From the IMG/VR virus record IMGVR_UViG_3300037882_001092, positions 1 to 27,386 of that record: a stretch of DNA of 27,386 bases, one strand, 5' to 3'. The position numbers and the translations under genes are program-made. The notes beneath the pieces are model-generated. The model was not told the origin of the DNA. It did not search any database and saw only the letters and a list, made by a program, of their open reading frames with translations. This DNA comes from a virus. This document shows, piece by piece, positions 6,333 to 27,072 of the stretch. The stretch's first letter is position 1, and the number at the start of each line of letters is the position of its first letter.

Positions 6333-8178
6333 CTGGTTCTAAATAAGTAGCTTTTAAATTATTAGTGTATAACTCATTAATTCTAAACTCAACATCTGCT
6401 GTTTGCCTAAAGATATTCCATTTAATAACATCATAATTAGCCTCTTTCCCATCGCTTGTAAATATACTACTATTTTCCTTTATTTTTTCATAATCATCAA
6501 AAGAAAATGGTACATTGTCAAAGTTTTTTATTAAATATTGGTTTCCGTTTGGAAATTCATCGCTTGGCATAAATGAATCGATATAATAGAAATTATCATA
6601 TAAATATTTTGCACTAAAATAAGTATCGTTAAGCTCATGTATTTTGTTGTACTTAGCAGAACTTCCTTTAGTCATTATAAATATTTTTTGCAATCCTGTA
6701 TTATCGTTTTCAATCTTTAACATTCCTTTTCTATTCTCAAATATGGTAGAGAATTTAGGCATTGATACAGTAGGAATTGAAGGTAAAACAAACTTAACTT
6801 TTATGCCTATTGTAGATAATTTTTTAAGAATATCATTTACAACTGCAATAATTTTATTTAAAACAGTTATAACTGCATTAATTACTTTTACTAATGCTCC
6901 AGCTATAACATCGAATACTTTTAAAAATTCATTTAGTATATTTTCAGGAACTGTTAAATCGTTTTTTCGTTTAGCTAATGCAAAGTTAATTGATATTTCA
7001 TTTAACCCGCTCATTAAAGAGTTTTGTGCATCTAGTACTCTATTAGGCTCTAAAATTAATTGATATGAAGTGCCTTTAAACTCCTGAATTGTATTTTTAT
7101 CTAAGGTATCAACTTGAAATTTAATGTAAGTATTAGCATTAAATTCATTGGTATTATAGCTATAATAAGGCTGGTAAACTGGCGGTAAAACGTATGTACT
7201 TGAAGGATTTTTATAATCTCTTCTAACAAATTTTAGTACGCCATTTCTAACTACAATTTTTGCATTGTAAATAGCTTTCATATCCCTTAAAAATTCACCA
7301 AATGTACCTTTGTGAAATCCTTCCTGTTCGTTTGATGGTTCGGTAAAGCCGAACAACTCTTTATCCTTTGAATTTATTTTATTATAATATTTAGCTGGTA
7401 AAATATAAGCGTCTTTATAAGGTGCTGAATCAAATATATCACTTTCAAATGTTAATCCTAATTGTTCACAACCCTTTTCAAAATGCTTTTTAACACTCAT
7501 ACAAGCATGGTATTTAACGGGCTGAATGATTAGCATTATAACCTGTTTAACTAACTTAATTAAGGCTATAATTAAAGCAATTAAGTATACAATGTAAAGG
7601 ATTAGTTTAACATAAGTAGAAAATACGTAATAAACGGGTAATTCTGCAACAAACTCAATTATTCTTTGTATGGCTTGTTTAATTTCTCTAACCATAACAT
7701 ACACTGCCAAAATACTTAAAGCACTTTCTGTATAATTTGGCACTGAATTTAAAATGTATGGTATACTATCAAAATCAGATGAATTAATAATTCCTTTATC
7801 CTTTAAATAAGCAAATGTAAAAGCATCTGCTTTGTCATTAACAAAATCAATACTATCACGCTCAATAGCTTTTACTTCAATCCTATTTTTAGAAAATTTA
7901 CTAGTTTGCTTTAAATCTACATAGCCGTTAAATACCTTTTCTGTAACTCCTAGCCTTTCAATTTCAATCCTTAATGGTATACCCTCAAAAATTAAATTAT
8001 CTTTAACCCATTGATTAATAATATCGGCGTTTTCTAATACAAATTCAAAATCCGTTAAAGTTACGGCTTGTCCTATATTATCTGGAGTTCTATTTAATTC
8101 AATACCAAATTCTTGCCAGTTCTTAGGTGGATTAACTTTTTTATCCGCTAAATAGAAATTTAATTTTGTTACTAGCAT
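6322..8178 (-). CDS. Tape-measure-adjacent tail protein with large hydrophobic insertions (618 aa)
   Basis: Residues 1-150 look like a tail-hub or distal-tail domain (FNGYVDLKQTSKFSKNRIEV is typical of hub barrels). Two strongly hydrophobic blocks follow: ~153-219 (including VYYVFSTYVKLILYIVYLIA and ALIIALIKLVKQVIMLI) and ~418-465 (VFDVIAGALVKVINAVITVL). The parts between and after are soluble and beta-rich. Such hydrophobic blocks are unusual for a structural baseplate protein and suggest insertion into a host membrane during DNA entry. The start overlaps the tape measure stop by one base (TAATG). By position it is the gene that normally encodes the distal tail protein or hub; the exact homologue is not identified. 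Confidence 0.65.
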   Translation of the reverse strand: MLVTKLNFYLADKKVNPPKNWQEFGIELNRTPDNIGQAVTLTDFEFVLENADIINQWVKDNLIFEGIPLRIEIERLGVTEKVFNGYVDLKQTSKFSKNRIEVKAIERDSIDFVNDKADAFTFAYLKDKGIINSSDFDSIPYILNSVPNYTESALSILAVYVMVREIKQAIQRIIEFVAELPVYYVFSTYVKLILYIVYLIALIIALIKLVKQVIMLIIQPVKYHACMSVKKHFEKGCEQLGLTFESDIFDSAPYKDAYILPAKYYNKINSKDKELFGFTEPSNEQEGFHKGTFGEFLRDMKAIYNAKIVVRNGVLKFVRRDYKNPSSTYVLPPVYQPYYSYNTNEFNANTYIKFQVDTLDKNTIQEFKGTSYQLILEPNRVLDAQNSLMSGLNEISINFALAKRKNDLTVPENILNEFLKVFDVIAGALVKVINAVITVLNKIIAVVNDILKKLSTIGIKVKFVLPSIPTVSMPKFSTIFENRKGMLKIENDNTGLQKIFIMTKGSSAKYNKIHELNDTYFSAKYLYDNFYYIDSFMPSDEFPNGNQYLIKNFDNVPFSFDDYEKIKENSSIFTSDGKEANYDVIKWNIFRQTADVEFRINELYTNNLKATYLEPDGK

Positions 8179-15795: not shown

Positions 15796-15807
15796 TTAAT
15801 TTTTTAG

Positions 15808-15880
15808 TAGCGAGAGGTGGATTCGAACCACCGACTTTGAGGTAATGAACCTCACGAGCTAACCACTGCTCTATCTCACA
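15808..15880 (-). tRNA. tRNA with CAU anticodon (Met, or Ile2 reading AUA)
   Basis: A full cloverleaf can be drawn on the minus strand. The acceptor is TGTGAGA/TCTCGCT; the D arm is GAGC/GCTC with loop AGTGGTTA; the anticodon arm is TGAGG/CCTCA with loop TTCATTA; the variable loop is AAGTC; the T arm is GGTGG/CCACC with loop TTCGAAT. The anticodon is CAU. Oddities: position 37 is U where nearly all tRNAs have a purine; the 1:72 pair is U-U; CCA is not encoded. It lacks the three stacked G-C pairs of an initiator tRNA in the anticodon stem (29:41 is A-U). It sits between two structural genes, transcribed with them. A CAU tRNA could be elongator Met or, after lysidine modification, Ile2 for the many AUA codons of this AT-rich genome. 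Confidence 0.88.
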
Positions 15881-22294: not shown

Positions 22295-24505
22295 CTAAAA
22301 CGGTTCAGATTCGTTTATAATTTCATTTATCCCTTCAGTTGACCATAAAGCTATACCTTTTTTAAAAGTGTTGTTACGTTTGTATAATTTATAATCAAGC
22401 TTATTTTTTATTAATACTTCCTTTAATTCATACTTAGTTGGTTTTAAAATTGATTTTAAATTTAAGTGTTCTAAAATTTCACCTTGATTCCAAACTTTTT
22501 CAAAATTATGTTCAGGTGTATGTTGAATGGAAAAATGTTTCCAAAATATTTCTTCAATTGGTAAAACAGTCTCATTTTGTGTTGAATTTTTTTGTATATA
22601 GTCCATGTCATCTTGAGTACGAACAATCCATTCAAAACCACTTTGTAATAAATTATAAGCCTCTATTATTAAAGATGTTTTATCTATTTCTAAAACTCTA
22701 TTGTAATCAATTTTTTCAACATTAATCGGTAAAATACGTCTATTACCAGTAACATCTTTTAAAATATCAACTTCATTAGAAGTACCACATAAAATAGCTC
22801 TGCGTTTAAAAGTCTTAGCCTCACGCTCGTACGGTCTACGCTGTGTGATTATATTCATATCACTAATAGCCTTATATTCTTTAACATCTTTAAACGCTTT
22901 ACCTCCAAATTCATCATCTAAAACTAAAAGACTATTACATAAAGTGTACATACTATCTTTATCATGTCCATTTATTTTTGATTCAACAATATATTTACTT
23001 AATTCTTTTGGCATTATATTACGTAAAAATGATGTTTTCCCAGTACCATGTTGCTGGCCAGTAAGAACTAATGTAAGAGGACAAACTAATTTTTCATTAT
23101 GCGAACTAGTCCAATTGTGTAGCGCTCCAACTAACCATTTTTTTATCGCCCATACATTGTAATCTGATTGGGGAAAAATACATTTAGCATACTGTTCAAT
23201 TATTCCAGTAGGATTTGATTTATTAGCTTCTAAAAAATCTGTTAAAATATTAATACGTTTTACTTTATTAGAATTAATAATTGAACGAATATCATTGATA
23301 GGCACATTAAAATCAAATATTTTTTTTGCACTTAAATACATATCATTCACTTCGGTATCTGTTAATATTATATCATTTAATAAATAAGTTGTATTAGTAA
23401 TAGCATCAAGTCTTGGCTCGTATGTATCTAAAATGAAATTTTCAAGCTGTTCAATTTCTGTAACATCACTATTAACCTCTTTTGAATAATCAATTTTACT
23501 TTCAATTAATTCTTTTATAAGGTCAATATCTTCATCATTAACAGTAATTTCATTAACAGTTAATAGATTTTTAGATACACTTTCTATTGTTGGATTACCT
23601 TGAGACTTTGAAATTTTAACACGATTAATTATATTTTTAGTTTTTTCGCTATAAATATTAATTCCTGCATCTTTACAATAATAATAAAAAGTGCCTATTT
23701 TAACTTTTCCTTGAGCTGTTTTACAAATGTTAGCCCATTTTTTAGAGGCATCCTCTCGCTTATATTTATTACCAAATTGACAAATAAAATGAAATGTTTC
23801 TTCGCCACTACTACCAAATTTATCAAATAAAGCAAGTCCAATATTAAAGTATCGTTGGTAATTTTCTTGACATAAATCAATTTGGCGTTCTTTAATTTGC
23901 TCTAAAATATTATCAAAATCTGATTTAGTATAAATAAAATTTGTATTTTTTGGAGCCTCAAAACGTTTAACATCTTTGGCTATAAATTTTAAAGACTTTT
24001 CATTTACATAAATATCAGGGTCATAGCTAATATATCTTAAACGGCTAGGATTTTTACATGATGGGTCAATTGTTATATTATAATTTTCTAAATAATATTG
24101 AGCAAGTCCATTAAAACTATCTAAAAATTTATCAGGATTTATTCTAACAAAAATAGCCATACCATCACCGCCAAAAGAACGGTGCACTATTGCTGAATAT
24201 TTATCATTTTTTAAATCCTCATTTACTTGGCCATCAATATCAATAACTATAAATCCGTTAAACTCTTTAATGTTGTTATCTGAACGACTACCATCTTTCA
24301 TAATAGCTGAACCAGTAATAGCTTGAGCTTTTGACTTAATTTTTTTATAATTATCTAAGTCTCCACTTTGTTTAGAAGCACGTGCTTTTAATACTAAATC
24401 TTGCCATGCACCATGCTTAATCATGCCACAATAATTTTCTAAATCAATTTCTTTTTTATCCTTTGTAAAGGCATTTTCGTAATAACTAACCTGTGATTTT
24501 TTCAT
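22295..24505 (-). CDS. Primase-helicase: BT4734-like N-terminal domain plus VirE-type P-loop ATPase (736 aa)
   Basis: Domain order: residues ~1-180 are a BT4734/VirE_N-type primase-like domain with the acidic motif FIVIDIDG (D89, D91), SFGGDGMAIFVRI at ~110, and DPSCKNPSRLRYISYDPD at ~148-164. Residues ~190-285 resemble a PriCT-2 domain (from QRYFNIGLALFDKFG to TFYYYCKDAGI). A linker follows, then from ~430 a VirE-type superfamily 3-like ATPase: Walker A GQQHGTGKTS at 483-492, Walker B LLVLDDEF at 526-533, and a sensor/arginine-finger region CGTSNEVDILKD then TGNRR (R589, R590). It is expected to unwind DNA and prime replication. The gene begins 2 nt after the homing endonuclease stop and ends at the repeat cluster. 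Confidence 0.88.
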   Translation of the reverse strand: MKKSQVSYYENAFTKDKKEIDLENYCGMIKHGAWQDLVLKARASKQSGDLDNYKKIKSKAQAITGSAIMKDGSRSDNNIKEFNGFIVIDIDGQVNEDLKNDKYSAIVHRSFGGDGMAIFVRINPDKFLDSFNGLAQYYLENYNITIDPSCKNPSRLRYISYDPDIYVNEKSLKFIAKDVKRFEAPKNTNFIYTKSDFDNILEQIKERQIDLCQENYQRYFNIGLALFDKFGSSGEETFHFICQFGNKYKREDASKKWANICKTAQGKVKIGTFYYYCKDAGINIYSEKTKNIINRVKISKSQGNPTIESVSKNLLTVNEITVNDEDIDLIKELIESKIDYSKEVNSDVTEIEQLENFILDTYEPRLDAITNTTYLLNDIILTDTEVNDMYLSAKKIFDFNVPINDIRSIINSNKVKRINILTDFLEANKSNPTGIIEQYAKCIFPQSDYNVWAIKKWLVGALHNWTSSHNEKLVCPLTLVLTGQQHGTGKTSFLRNIMPKELSKYIVESKINGHDKDSMYTLCNSLLVLDDEFGGKAFKDVKEYKAISDMNIITQRRPYEREAKTFKRRAILCGTSNEVDILKDVTGNRRILPINVEKIDYNRVLEIDKTSLIIEAYNLLQSGFEWIVRTQDDMDYIQKNSTQNETVLPIEEIFWKHFSIQHTPEHNFEKVWNQGEILEHLNLKSILKPTKYELKEVLIKNKLDYKLYKRNNTFKKGIALWSTEGINEIINESEPF

Positions 24506-24507
24506 AA

Positions 24508-25167
24508 TTATGCGTATTTAAATTGTGTATTATTTTTTAAATTATTTCTCATTTTATATAAAATTGTCGACCTTGAAAAGCCATAAATATCGCATAAATC
24601 TCTTGCATTGTTATAAAAAACGCCTGTATTTATATCTATAATTGGATAACTCTGAGTTAACGCAGATTTTAATCTACTTTCTTTTGGCATATTTTTTAAT
24701 TTATAAATAGTTTTATTTTTATGTTCAAGAGTTATTTTTTTATTTTTAGCTGAGTTAGACATTTTAATTCTCATTTCTTCACTTCTAATAAAATTTTCTT
24801 TTTTTAAATGATTATTATTTCTTTTTTTACCAATATTTCCAATAGATATATTTTTTTTATGTACCTCTGAAAGTTTACCACTTTTATCGTTTGTTTTAGT
24901 TAATAAAGAATTTAAGCCATTTTCACTTATAACATCATAAAAATCTTGAAAATATCGTTCTCTTTCGTTTAATAACTCAATAGCACATTCTTCAATTATT
25001 TCAAAAATATGATTATCTATACCGTATTTTATTAAAGAATTATATAATTTAGGCTGTTTTTTTATAGAATTGATTTTTCTGTAATCATTAAATCTTCTAT
25101 AAATATCAATACTTTGACCAATATAAACTCTATTATTTGGAGAAGTAATTTTATAAATTCCTATCAT
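24508..25167 (-). CDS. GIY-YIG homing endonuclease, free-standing (219 aa)
   Basis: The GIY-YIG nuclease domain (residues ~1-85) has GIY at 3-5, VYIG at 14-17, the conserved Arg (R24 or R25 in IYRRF), HIFEIIEEC at 53-61 and the catalytic Glu (probably E70) in LNERERYFQDFY. Two NUMOD3-like DNA-contact segments follow (SEVHKKNISIGNIGKK and SEEMRIKMSNSAKNKK), then a C-terminal NUMOD1/IENR-like DNA-binding helix-turn-helix (FYNNARDLCDIYGFSRSTIL). It would cut a specific site in phages lacking the gene so that repair copies it in. Both flanking genes are intact, so it is intergenic, not in an intron. Its leader is the pseudoknot element at 25181-25273. The gene is more Lys/Asn-rich and AT-rich than its neighbours, in keeping with a mobile origin. 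Confidence 0.92.
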   Translation of the reverse strand: MIGIYKITSPNNRVYIGQSIDIYRRFNDYRKINSIKKQPKLYNSLIKYGIDNHIFEIIEECAIELLNERERYFQDFYDVISENGLNSLLTKTNDKSGKLSEVHKKNISIGNIGKKRNNNHLKKENFIRSEEMRIKMSNSAKNKKITLEHKNKTIYKLKNMPKESRLKSALTQSYPIIDINTGVFYNNARDLCDIYGFSRSTILYKMRNNLKNNTQFKYA

Positions 25168-25180
25168 TTAAATTAAAATA

Positions 25181-25273
25181 CCCACTAAATACAAAGGCTT
25201 ATCCGACTGCTAAGTATTAGCAAATGGCATTGTAAATAGTGGGGTTTAATTAATTTTTTCATGTCGAATAAGC
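25181..25273 (-). ncRNA. Structured leader RNA with pseudoknot topology upstream of the homing endonuclease
   Basis: Minus-strand RNA. P1 is GCUUAUUCGAC (25273-25263) with GUCGGAUAAGC (25207-25197), 11 pairs, one a U-G. P2 is CCCACUAUUUACA (25243-25231) with UGUAUUUAGUGGG (25193-25181), 11 of 13 pairs. P3 is a hairpin, UGCUAA-UAC-UUAGCA (25222-25208), directly next to P1's 3' strand. The order is P1, P2, P3, P1', P2', so P1 and P2 interleave as a pseudoknot. The 5' end of P1 falls at the transcription start predicted from the TATATTTG element. The start codon of the endonuclease is 13 nt beyond P2. It may control translation or termination of the endonuclease message; function is unproven. 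Confidence 0.6.
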
Positions 25274-25277
25274 GTTA

Positions 25278-25285
25278 CAAATATA
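25278..25285 (-). promoter_or_regulatory. TATATTTG promoter element of the homing endonuclease leader
   Basis: The minus strand reads TATATTTG immediately after the helicase stop codon, followed by four bases and then the first G of the P1 helix at 25273, the expected start of transcription. No clear -33 TTTG is seen at 19-21 bp. It implies that the endonuclease is transcribed on its own, with the structured RNA as its exact 5' leader. Confidence 0.6.
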
Positions 25286-26941
25286 CTAAATATTATAATA
25301 TGAATCTAATTTTTCATAAACTTTATTATATAAATAATTTAAAGTTCTGTGAACTCCGCTTTTTAAATCATGTTTTGATTTTAATGGAAAATAATTTTGT
25401 TGTATCATTTTCTCTATTTTTTTTTGTAATCTACCATTTGATTTATTTGACAAATATTGCTCTTTACTTATTCTATAATATCTAAAAAGGTCGCATACCT
25501 GGTTTATAAGAATCCTAAATGCAAAATTTAAATCTTCATTTTGTGAAAGGGTATAAAGATATATTTTTTCAGCATTTGGAGGTGGAATTGAACGTATTGG
25601 TTTACTAACAATTTCATCTTCTTGTTTTTCTTTTTTTTGTTTTTGTTCAATTTCAAATTTACATTCAGGACAAATATCAATAGATTTAGACATTAAATAA
25701 CCACAACTTGGGCACATTTGCACATCTTCAATATTTTCACGTTTAGCCTTTGGTTTTTCTTTACCTTCAAAAAATAAACGTTTCCAATCTCTAGTATTAT
25801 CACTCCATTCATTATGCCTATCTATATTACCACCACCATCTATTACTAAAAAGTTATCTTTATAAATTAAATTTGATGAGCGTCCACCACGCCCAACCAT
25901 TTGTAAAAATAAACTAAGACTATTTGTAGGTCTATTTAAAATAATCGCTTGTACGGTTGTGTCATCAAATCCAGTTGTAAATACGCCAACATTGCAAAGT
26001 ATTGCATTTTGTGTGTTTTTAAACCATTCTACTACTTGTTTACGTGGTTCGCACTCATTTATGCTATCAAACATTTTAATATTATTATATCCGCTAGATA
26101 AAAATTTTTCATAAATTAACTTATTTGATTTTGATGTTGAATTGAAAATAATTGTTTTCTTACCTTCACATATTTCTTTATAATTAAGCACAACATTAAA
26201 TAAAGCATTTTCATCATTATAAACTTCATTCATTGAAGTATCAGAATAATCGCCAGTTTTATTGTCAATTTTTAATTTAGAATTATCTGTATAATTCTTA
26301 ACAAAAGAAATATCTTGAACTAATTTACCATCATTAATTAAATCTTGAATTGATGCACCGATAACTATATCATTATAAATTTCACTTAATGTAAATGGCT
26401 TTGTCCACTCCATAACCTCATCATTACAACAATTAGTTAATTTATCATAATTAGTTTTACAATGTTGACATTTAAAAAATGTTATTTTTTTTAGTAATAC
26501 TGGAGTTGCTGTACACCCTAATATTTTACTAAAATCAAAATGTTTAAATATTTTATCAAATACTAAAATATGACATTCATCACATATAATTAAATCAACA
26601 TCTTTAAAAAAACTATCATTATCTTTTAATCTATTGTTAGCTGTTTCAATCATTGCAACATAAACATTACTTTTATGGTTTAATCTTCTTACTTTACTAG
26701 TAATAGATTCACATGTTAAACCTATTTTTTGTAAAGATGCAATAGTTTGATTTACAAGTTCTATTCTGTGGCAAAGAATCAAAACTTTTTTATTTGTTTT
26801 TTCAATCCAATGCTTTGCTAAAAAACTAAACACAATAGTTTTACCGCCTCCAGTTGGTAATTGATATAATATTCTTTGATTAGTTTGAAATTTCTGCAAT
26901 ATTTCATTTACAGATTTTTGTTGATGTTCGTATAGTTGCAT
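25286..26941 (-). CDS. Superfamily II DEAD/DEAH-box-type DNA helicase with zinc-binding segments (551 aa)
   Basis: The ATG at 26941 is chosen. The longer frame from 26968 begins inside a leader hairpin. Motif I is LPTGGGKT (about 28-35), motif II DECH at 121-124 inside LIICDECHILVFD, motif III GCTATP at 142-147, and motif VI QMVGRGGRSS at 347-356. Motifs IV-V regions are IIFNSTSKSNKL and TTGFDDTTVQA. A Cys-rich insertion after motif III (FKCQHCKTNYDK then NCC) and a C-terminal zinc ribbon (CPSCGYLM...CPEC, Cys 410, 413, 424, 427) are extra. The start MQLYEHQQKSVNEIL is the typical Q/helix I region of UvsW/RecQ-like phage helicases. It probably remodels replication or recombination intermediates with the primase and the VRR-NUC nuclease. 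Confidence 0.9.
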   Translation of the reverse strand: MQLYEHQQKSVNEILQKFQTNQRILYQLPTGGGKTIVFSFLAKHWIEKTNKKVLILCHRIELVNQTIASLQKIGLTCESITSKVRRLNHKSNVYVAMIETANNRLKDNDSFFKDVDLIICDECHILVFDKIFKHFDFSKILGCTATPVLLKKITFFKCQHCKTNYDKLTNCCNDEVMEWTKPFTLSEIYNDIVIGASIQDLINDGKLVQDISFVKNYTDNSKLKIDNKTGDYSDTSMNEVYNDENALFNVVLNYKEICEGKKTIIFNSTSKSNKLIYEKFLSSGYNNIKMFDSINECEPRKQVVEWFKNTQNAILCNVGVFTTGFDDTTVQAIILNRPTNSLSLFLQMVGRGGRSSNLIYKDNFLVIDGGGNIDRHNEWSDNTRDWKRLFFEGKEKPKAKRENIEDVQMCPSCGYLMSKSIDICPECKFEIEQKQKKEKQEDEIVSKPIRSIPPPNAEKIYLYTLSQNEDLNFAFRILINQVCDLFRYYRISKEQYLSNKSNGRLQKKIEKMIQQNYFPLKSKHDLKSGVHRTLNYLYNKVYEKLDSYYNI

Positions 26942-26954
26942 TGTTATTAATGAA

Positions 26955-27030
26955 AAACCCTTTCTCATTGAGGTGGAAGGCTCGCAGAAAAAGGGTTTAT
27001 CGAATAAATATTTTTATTAGTCGCTTCCAC
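26955..27030 (-). ncRNA. Structured leader with pseudoknot topology upstream of the helicase gene
   Basis: Minus-strand RNA. P1 is GUGGAAG (27030-27024) with CUUCCAC (26979-26973), 7 pairs. P2 is AAACCCUUUUUC (26998-26987) with GAGAAAGGGUUU (26966-26955), 12 pairs including one U-G that exists only on this strand. P1's 3' strand lies in the P2 loop, so the order is P1, P2, P1', P2'. Between P1 and P2 a small hairpin is possible (AAUAAA with UUUAUU, within 27022-27000). P2 is followed by UUUU-rich sequence, so on its own it also looks like a terminator or attenuator. The helicase ATG is 13 nt beyond P2. The topology is the same as in the leader at 25181-25273 but the sequence differs. Confidence 0.55.
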
Positions 27031-27040
27031 ACAACTTTTG

Positions 27041-27072
27041 CAAAGTTAATTAATTACTTTTTAATATCCAAA
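27041..27072 (-). promoter_or_regulatory. Strong Bacteroidetes-type promoter for the helicase/replication operon
   Basis: The minus strand has TTTG (27072-27069), a 20-bp spacer and TAACTTTG (27048-27041), matching the -33/-7 Bacteroidetes consensus with ideal spacing. The expected start of transcription is near 27036, about 95 nt before the helicase ATG; the leader holds the structured element described at 26955-27030. Confidence 0.75.

Follow-up and report, generated by a model that had tools for sequence, protein, structure and literature searches.

A class of promoter-linked pseudoknot and kissing-loop RNA leaders precedes homing endonuclease and replication genes in Bacteroidota phages

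The DNA analysed here, i.e. the window (27,386 nucleotides of the IMG/VR virus record IMGVR_UViG_3300037882_001092), carries on its minus strand two structured RNA leaders, one before a GIY-YIG homing endonuclease gene and one before the adjacent helicase gene. Both belong to a class of leaders that is apparently undescribed and apparently widespread among phages. The members of this class share a promoter-linked, covarying structure that is specific for the sense strand and has a terminator-like ending, and they are used by genes unrelated to each other. We interpret them as promoter-proximal RNA attenuators at the start of many Bacteroidota phage transcripts, carried or shared by homing endonuclease cassettes, and we give this interpretation about even credence.

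The endonuclease gene (24508..25167, minus strand, 219 amino acids) matches PF01541 (5.5e-06), TIGR01453 (1.4e-20) and phrog_314 (5.8e-30). Its leader is preceded by the sequence TATATTTG (25278..25285, minus strand), a Bacteroidetes -7 promoter element, the consensus of which is TAnnTTTG (PMC7366714). The stop codon of the helicase gene (25288-25286, minus strand) directly abuts this promoter-like element. Four nucleotides past the element begins the 5' strand of the helix P1, GCUUAUUCGAC (25263..25273), which is followed on the same minus strand by the 5' strand of P2, CCCACUAUUUACAA (25230..25243), an extra 6-bp hairpin UGCUAAUACUUAGCA (25208..25222), the 3' strand of P1, GUCGGAUAAGC (25197..25207), and the 3' strand of P2, UUGUAUUUAGUGGG (25181..25194). 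GCUUAUUCGAC and GUCGGAUAAGC form 11 pairs, including one U-G, and CCCACUAUUUACAA and UUGUAUUUAGUGGG form 12 of 14. P2 is followed by UAUUUUAAUUU, where an A interrupts the U's (5 in 8 nt), and the ATG begins at 25167. An earlier reading made from the sequence alone (the sequence-only reading) had listed the promoter, the four bases, the 11-pair P1, P2 and the hairpin ahead of the endonuclease start, and all are present; for P2 we count 12 of 14 pairs, where it had given 11 of 13.

A 25-codon ORF, MKKLIKPHYLQCHLLILSSRISLCI, lies inside this leader (25262-25185, minus strand), with its ATG at 25262 and its stop in the 3' strand of P2. A leader peptide encoded by it was discarded as a conserved feature, since it is absent from the other leaders inspected. 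A pistol-like ribozyme, suggested by the topology (a hairpin loop pairing back, an A-rich linker), was likewise dropped, as there is no Rfam match.

The stability of the fold was scored as that of the most stable pair of crossing stems. The endonuclease leader reaches -36.8, the mean of dinucleotide shuffles being -15.7 (sd 6.2), and none of 3000 shuffles matches it; it is also the top crossing fold when both strands of the whole window are scanned. The fold thus exceeds chance. The minus strand outscores the plus strand (-32.6) at this site, in agreement with an RNA that has the same strand as the gene, as had been proposed from the wobble pair in P1. RNAfold, which does not consider pseudoknots, retains P2 and the hairpin (z = -3.5). 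Within the window the crossing fold follows 2 of 61 TAnnTTTG sites versus 0 of 98 control-motif sites.

An equivalent leader, overlooked in the sequence-only reading, precedes the adjacent helicase gene (27040-26955, minus strand). Its promoter element, TAACTTTG, is at 27041..27048, and the leader itself (26955..27040) is seen with the covariance model R1, the pseudoknot scan and RNA folding. It consists of a hairpin P0 (AGUUGU/GCGACU), P1 (GUGGAAG, 27030-27024, with CUUCCAC, 26979-26973), P2 (26998-26987 with 26966-26955) and P3 (GAG/CUC), followed by U5. This is the second-best separate crossing fold of the window (-31.2, 0 of 3000 shuffles), and RNAfold yields the P0 and P2-P3 hairpins unaided, with GUGGAAG and CUUCCAC in their loops. 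Model R1, built from endonuclease and other leaders of other phages, gives it 25 bits, i.e. it was found independently of the crossing-fold scan. The SF2 helicase ORF (25286..26941, minus strand) probably starts at ATG 26941 (MQLYEHQQ) and not at 26968 as given by the ORF caller, because the latter position falls inside the leader. The helicase of a relative, the locus L194, begins at the residue matching 26941. The helicase P1, GUGGAAG:CUUCCAC in the window, reads GUCGAAG:CUUCGAC in L194, which is a compensated swap.

A two-sequence comparison with Flavobacterium phage FL-1 provided the conserved features through which 80 IMG/VR loci containing GIY-YIG relatives were obtained. With the window added, 84 upstream regions were considered, and in about 26 of them no more than 1 of 60 shuffles equalled the crossing fold. 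The regions with such a fold have wholly different sequences and one shared order of parts, i.e. promoter element, 5' strand of P1, A-rich linker, 5' strand of P2, 3' strand of P1, 3' strand of P2, U-rich stretch and ATG. A pattern describing one subclass led to 51 contigs, part of them already known, in which the leaders precede GIY-YIG, NUMOD4-HNH, HNH, T5orf172 and other genes as well as small ORFs. In leader-bearing contigs (window included), which were partly selected for having a leader, 172 of 453 TATATTTG sites are followed by the fold, where 3.5 are expected from shuffles. Of the matches in the preceding scan, however, 51 belong to types for which the promoter-plus-loop pattern had not selected; one of the control motifs of that scan, TGTATATT, overlaps with the promoter and cannot count as clean. 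Leaders of the class are carried by cultured Flavobacterium phages (mumin, mymlan and relatives; PMC7077304).

No leaders turned up in Cellulophaga phage phi46:1 and Nonlabens phage P12024S, and model R1, at low sensitivity and with no positive control, had no matches in the chromosomes of 296 Bacteroidota genomes. A similarity search with the leader DNA among phages and plasmids returned no meaningful matches, the exact pattern of the endonuclease leader had none in IMG/VR, and single-protein IMG/VR searches with the endonuclease and the helicase gave no relatives, the patterns being too specific. The comparison with Rfam proposed in the sequence-only reading left the leader without a family: at gathering score the window matches only tRNA (release 15, 4227 models), the region of the endonuclease leader has only chance-level matches up to E=10, and 20 homologous loci gave tRNA only. 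A tRNA-Met gene (anticodon CAT) lies in the structural-gene region of the window (15807-15880, minus strand). In the open-access literature we found no description of such a leader class.

Leaders were assigned to the class by a promoter element, crossing P1 and P2 helices and an ATG about 24-42 nt past the 3' strand of P1; in the window this distance is 29 nt for the endonuclease leader and 31 nt for the helicase leader. The common form consists of promoter, hairpin P0, hairpin P2-P3, a 7-bp loop-loop helix P1, U-tract and ATG. In other words, it is a symmetric intramolecular kissing loop between two hairpins, each loop having an unpaired A plus 7 nt. The kissing (K) subtype was defined by P0 and P3 stems enclosing 8-nt loops and a 7-bp P1, features that the helicase leader of the window shows. 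An automatic rule placed 149 of 172 leaders in the K type and 13 in the H type, which has no P0 and usually a longer P1 (8-13 bp), usually at offset +4. The endonuclease leader of the window, with no P0, no P3, an 11-bp P1 and the +4 offset common to other leaders of this subtype, is of the H type, as are those of L116, L139, L142, L162 and L201; its 6-bp hairpin is not conserved across the class. The class model gives it only 14.7 bits and it has no sequence ortholog, so that it is assigned to the class by its position, topology and ending.

A recurrent variety, with GGUCAG/CUGACC as P1, occurs in L112, L133, L138, L144, L147, L163, L171, L179, L182, L196, L235 and L241, where it precedes small conserved phage ORFs (METQTDWRKYRKSTHLA, METLLKILQEKMLLIEQLE, MKTLFDNLKEEHKE and others). 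Where a phage has several leaders (G317, G322, G302, G307, G299 and others; L299-L327), their P1 helices were different in all the cases inspected.

The sequence-only reading had suggested looking for compensating changes in P1 and P2 upstream of other GIY-YIG genes, and such changes are plentiful in the leader class. In an alignment of 35 subclass-A leaders, with P1 treated as a pseudoknot, 99.0% of the cells pair, and 10 of the 17 pairs of P0, P1 and P2 have changes on both sides. Double-change cells number 83, against 21.6 in shuffles and at most 7 on sliding, and the covariation score is 0.417 versus 0.113. A wider pattern, in which the promoter was fixed and three P1 positions were left free, selected 95 unique sites; all three free positions are complementary in 93 of them, the chance being 1 in 32 per site. 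P0, the outer pairs of which are unconstrained by the pattern, has 4 of 4 pairs in 105 of 111 sites, and P3, which surrounds the 3' strand of P1 and is likewise no part of the pattern, has at least 3 bp in 111 of 111 (58 with permuted partners). The non-Watson-Crick pairs that interrupt P2 are G-U in 24 cases, A-C in none and of other kinds in 15. This asymmetry between G-U and A-C means that selection acts on the sense RNA, and it generalises to the class the strand argument that had been drawn from a single wobble. Note that the covariation is demonstrated for the leader class, not for the endonuclease copy of the window. With relatives that show such strong compensatory change, the description of the element as a promoter-linked structured RNA that leads the endonuclease gene is upheld.

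Besides the fold, a GC-footed stem followed by a U-tract is conserved beside the start codon. At least 5 U within the 8 nt past the last G-C pair are present in 103 of 111 leaders and in 160 of the 172 that follow TATATTTG sites, i.e. a terminator-like U-tract ends about 93% of the leaders. Likewise, 93 of 105 leaders have a U-run of at least 5 no farther than 22 nt from the ATG, as compared with 107 of 612 control ORFs. The endonuclease copy, with 5 U of 8, is marginal in this respect, and the U-tract is poor in six leaders that precede replication-type or other genes, their stem being followed by AUUAACUUUUU. No mutually exclusive antiterminator pairing was seen on reading the leaders and the RNA folds.

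From this ending we infer that P2 would act as a terminator on most transcripts. According to the attenuator interpretation, the RNA would start a few bases past TATATTTG, and the hairpin P0 would form first, its place being taken by a bare 5' end in the H-subtype endonuclease copy. Then 7-11 nt of the P0 loop (or of the 5' end) would pair with the loop that the following hairpin encloses, to give P1. The outer stem P2 would close as a GC-footed hairpin followed by the U-tract just before the start codon. The loop contact between P0 and P1 would pre-nucleate or gate this terminator, and a phage or host signal would alter read-through, so that nucleases would be kept low and replication genes timed.

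The main competitor is a translational gate, in which the fold beside the start codon would block or admit ribosomes in full-length mRNA while termination would be weak or incidental. Such a gate agrees with the distance from the 3' strand of P1 to the ATG, tightly kept in nearly all gene families (about 24-42 nt), with the fact that replication-type leaders with a poor U-tract retain the fold, and with the start-region structure used by T4 endonuclease and lysozyme mRNAs (PMC3014915). A gate needs no U-tract, however, and one is found past the GC foot in about 93% of the leaders, far above other ORFs; in many copies, moreover, a long A/U-rich stretch separates P2 from the ATG. We consider the gate unlikely.

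The sequence-only reading had pointed in the same direction when it referred to the T4 homing endonuclease genes, whose start is hidden by RNA structure. The T4-type leaders (I-TevI, I-TevII, I-TevIII, segB and Aeh1 mobE) have structured RNA before the start codon, and a late promoter cuts the hairpin out of late transcripts (PMC3014915). The likeness is that a structured RNA lies immediately before the start of a phage endonuclease and that low expression is expected. The hiding of the start codon in the T4 manner does not fit the present leaders, in which the promoter lies wholly upstream of the fold (upstream of P0 or P1 in the leaders examined, not inside the structure) and a terminator-like stem with U-tract adjoins the start codon. 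They also differ in having a pseudoknot or kissing loop and in being common to replication genes. In ColIb-type plasmids a pseudoknot controls the translation of repZ, and there too a hairpin loop pairs with a downstream segment near the start of a replication gene; the present leaders differ in their terminator-like end and phage setting, and no antisense RNA has been identified for them.

Another explanation is that the fold is an operator for a phage protein, e.g. a single-strand binding protein or a replication factor, that would coordinate replication genes. The model for this is gp32 autoregulation at the T4 gene 32 leader, which is likewise a 5' pseudoknot before a replication gene with A/U-rich RNA up to the start (PMC3014915), and the many copies per phage ahead of replication genes are in its favour. 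But P1, P2 and P3 vary almost freely in sequence, only the loop A's and, in one leader subclass, GAUAAAGAC/CUUUUGAU look conserved, and the U-tract is not explained. The gene 32 leader, moreover, belongs to a single gene of one phage group and has no terminator, whereas here we see many unrelated genes, variable sequences and paired hairpin loops. An operator of this kind is in our view distinctly unlikely.

P1 or P0 begins only 4-12 nt past the promoter element, and a structure at the extreme 5' end could shield the mRNA from 5'-end-dependent decay. A simple hairpin would suffice for this, however, and the loop-loop pairing and terminator-like end would be left unexplained, which makes a stabilising role improbable. 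It is very improbable that the leader is a gene for a trans-acting small RNA of about 95 nt, with its own promoter and terminator and with the downstream gene expressed by read-through. This arrangement (promoter, structured RNA, intrinsic terminator, ORF) is known from AbiF with its RNA RCd22 and from type III toxin-antitoxin systems (PMC12373285), where the RNA serves as antidote to a single toxin family; the genes behind the present leaders belong to unrelated families, and the ATG spacing is fixed. That no two leaders of the same phage share their P1 (0 of 22 pairs identical) would be in its favour, but the difference is not significant (permutation P = 0.12). The put RNA of HK022 is a processive antitermination element that loads onto RNA polymerase, and the leaders resemble it in having two hairpins right where transcripts begin and many copies per phage; the leader itself, however, has a terminator-like end, and we regard this role as highly improbable. 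A chance fold, or a structure acting in single-stranded DNA as was raised for the STAXI motif (PMC2864571), can practically be dismissed in view of the 3000 shuffles, the covariation and the 24 G-U versus 0 A-C pairs, which fit sense RNA. STAXI is also a candidate pseudoknot RNA near DNA-handling genes of mobile elements, yet it occurs as 2-3 tandem copies and is listed for Enterobacteriales, whereas the present leaders have one unit each and no Rfam match.

The genes that follow the leaders are diverse. Behind 115 unique leaders about half of the genes are endonucleases (GIY-YIG, HNH and T5orf172), and the others encode VapE/BT4734-type primases, helicases of the window family, DUF6291/DUF7833 proteins, HTH replication-type proteins and small ORFs. 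That the leader would be particular to homing endonucleases is thus not supported, since in the same phages helicase, primase and replication genes and small ORFs, the window's own helicase among them, have it too. It is found before the helicase gene, with differing sequences, in L194, L146, L171, L208, L223 and L251, and in Flavobacterium phage mymlan6-1 before a small gene preceding the helicase. A 79-aa protein (MNTISVQGFKIDINHF...) with no Pfam match recurs behind leaders in L108, L110, L111, L114, L118, L126, L128, L137, L144, L150, L155 and L201.

In the window, the presumed inserted cassette of leader and endonuclease (24506..25285, minus strand, edges approximate) lies between the helicase gene and that of a BT4734-like/VapE primase-helicase (22295..24505, minus strand), which follows the endonuclease directly. 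In L194 the helicase and the primase are 54.6% and 60.3% identical to those of the window, and the two orthologous ORFs overlap (matches end at 7796 and start at 7780; region 7690-7900), with neither endonuclease nor leader at the junction. Since the ORFs overlap where the insert is missing, leader and endonuclease look like one inserted cassette and, judged from this comparison, seem to have entered together. The earlier idea that the RNA is carried with the mobile gene is therefore partly right, the junction being empty in the closest relative found; in L027 an endonuclease lies at the same site downstream of the helicase without such a leader, so the leader is not obligatory. Because the primase-helicase gene comes immediately after the endonuclease gene, the inserted leader may govern it as well. 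The cassette would bring a leader of the host-operon type and keep the downstream primase under similar control.

Simple terminator hairpins with a U-tract were also noted directly or shortly before the ATG of other GIY-YIG genes (just before the match start in L058, L068, L076, L082 and L084; at 2940-3000 in L004), some of them behind a promoter-like element, which suggests that a terminator before the ATG is a wider theme for GIY-YIG nucleases.

A broader extension of the attenuator interpretation, which we put forward tentatively, is that one RNA-level system governs a large share of the transcripts in a group of Bacteroidota phages. Its kissing-loop terminator leaders, each with its own loop pair, would be opened together in infection by a phage or host factor or RNA, and endonucleases would have adopted the leader so that their insertion spares the timing of the replication operon.

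What began as one odd pseudoknot has led to a class of phage leader RNAs that is apparently undescribed and very common, covaries strongly and has a clear strand. The class is a concrete candidate for timing replication genes and restraining mobile nucleases in the little-studied phages of Bacteroidota, and it suggests that a selfish gene brings along the regulatory leader used by the phages that it invades. The cultured Flavobacterium phages that carry the leader (PMC7077304) make the class directly testable.
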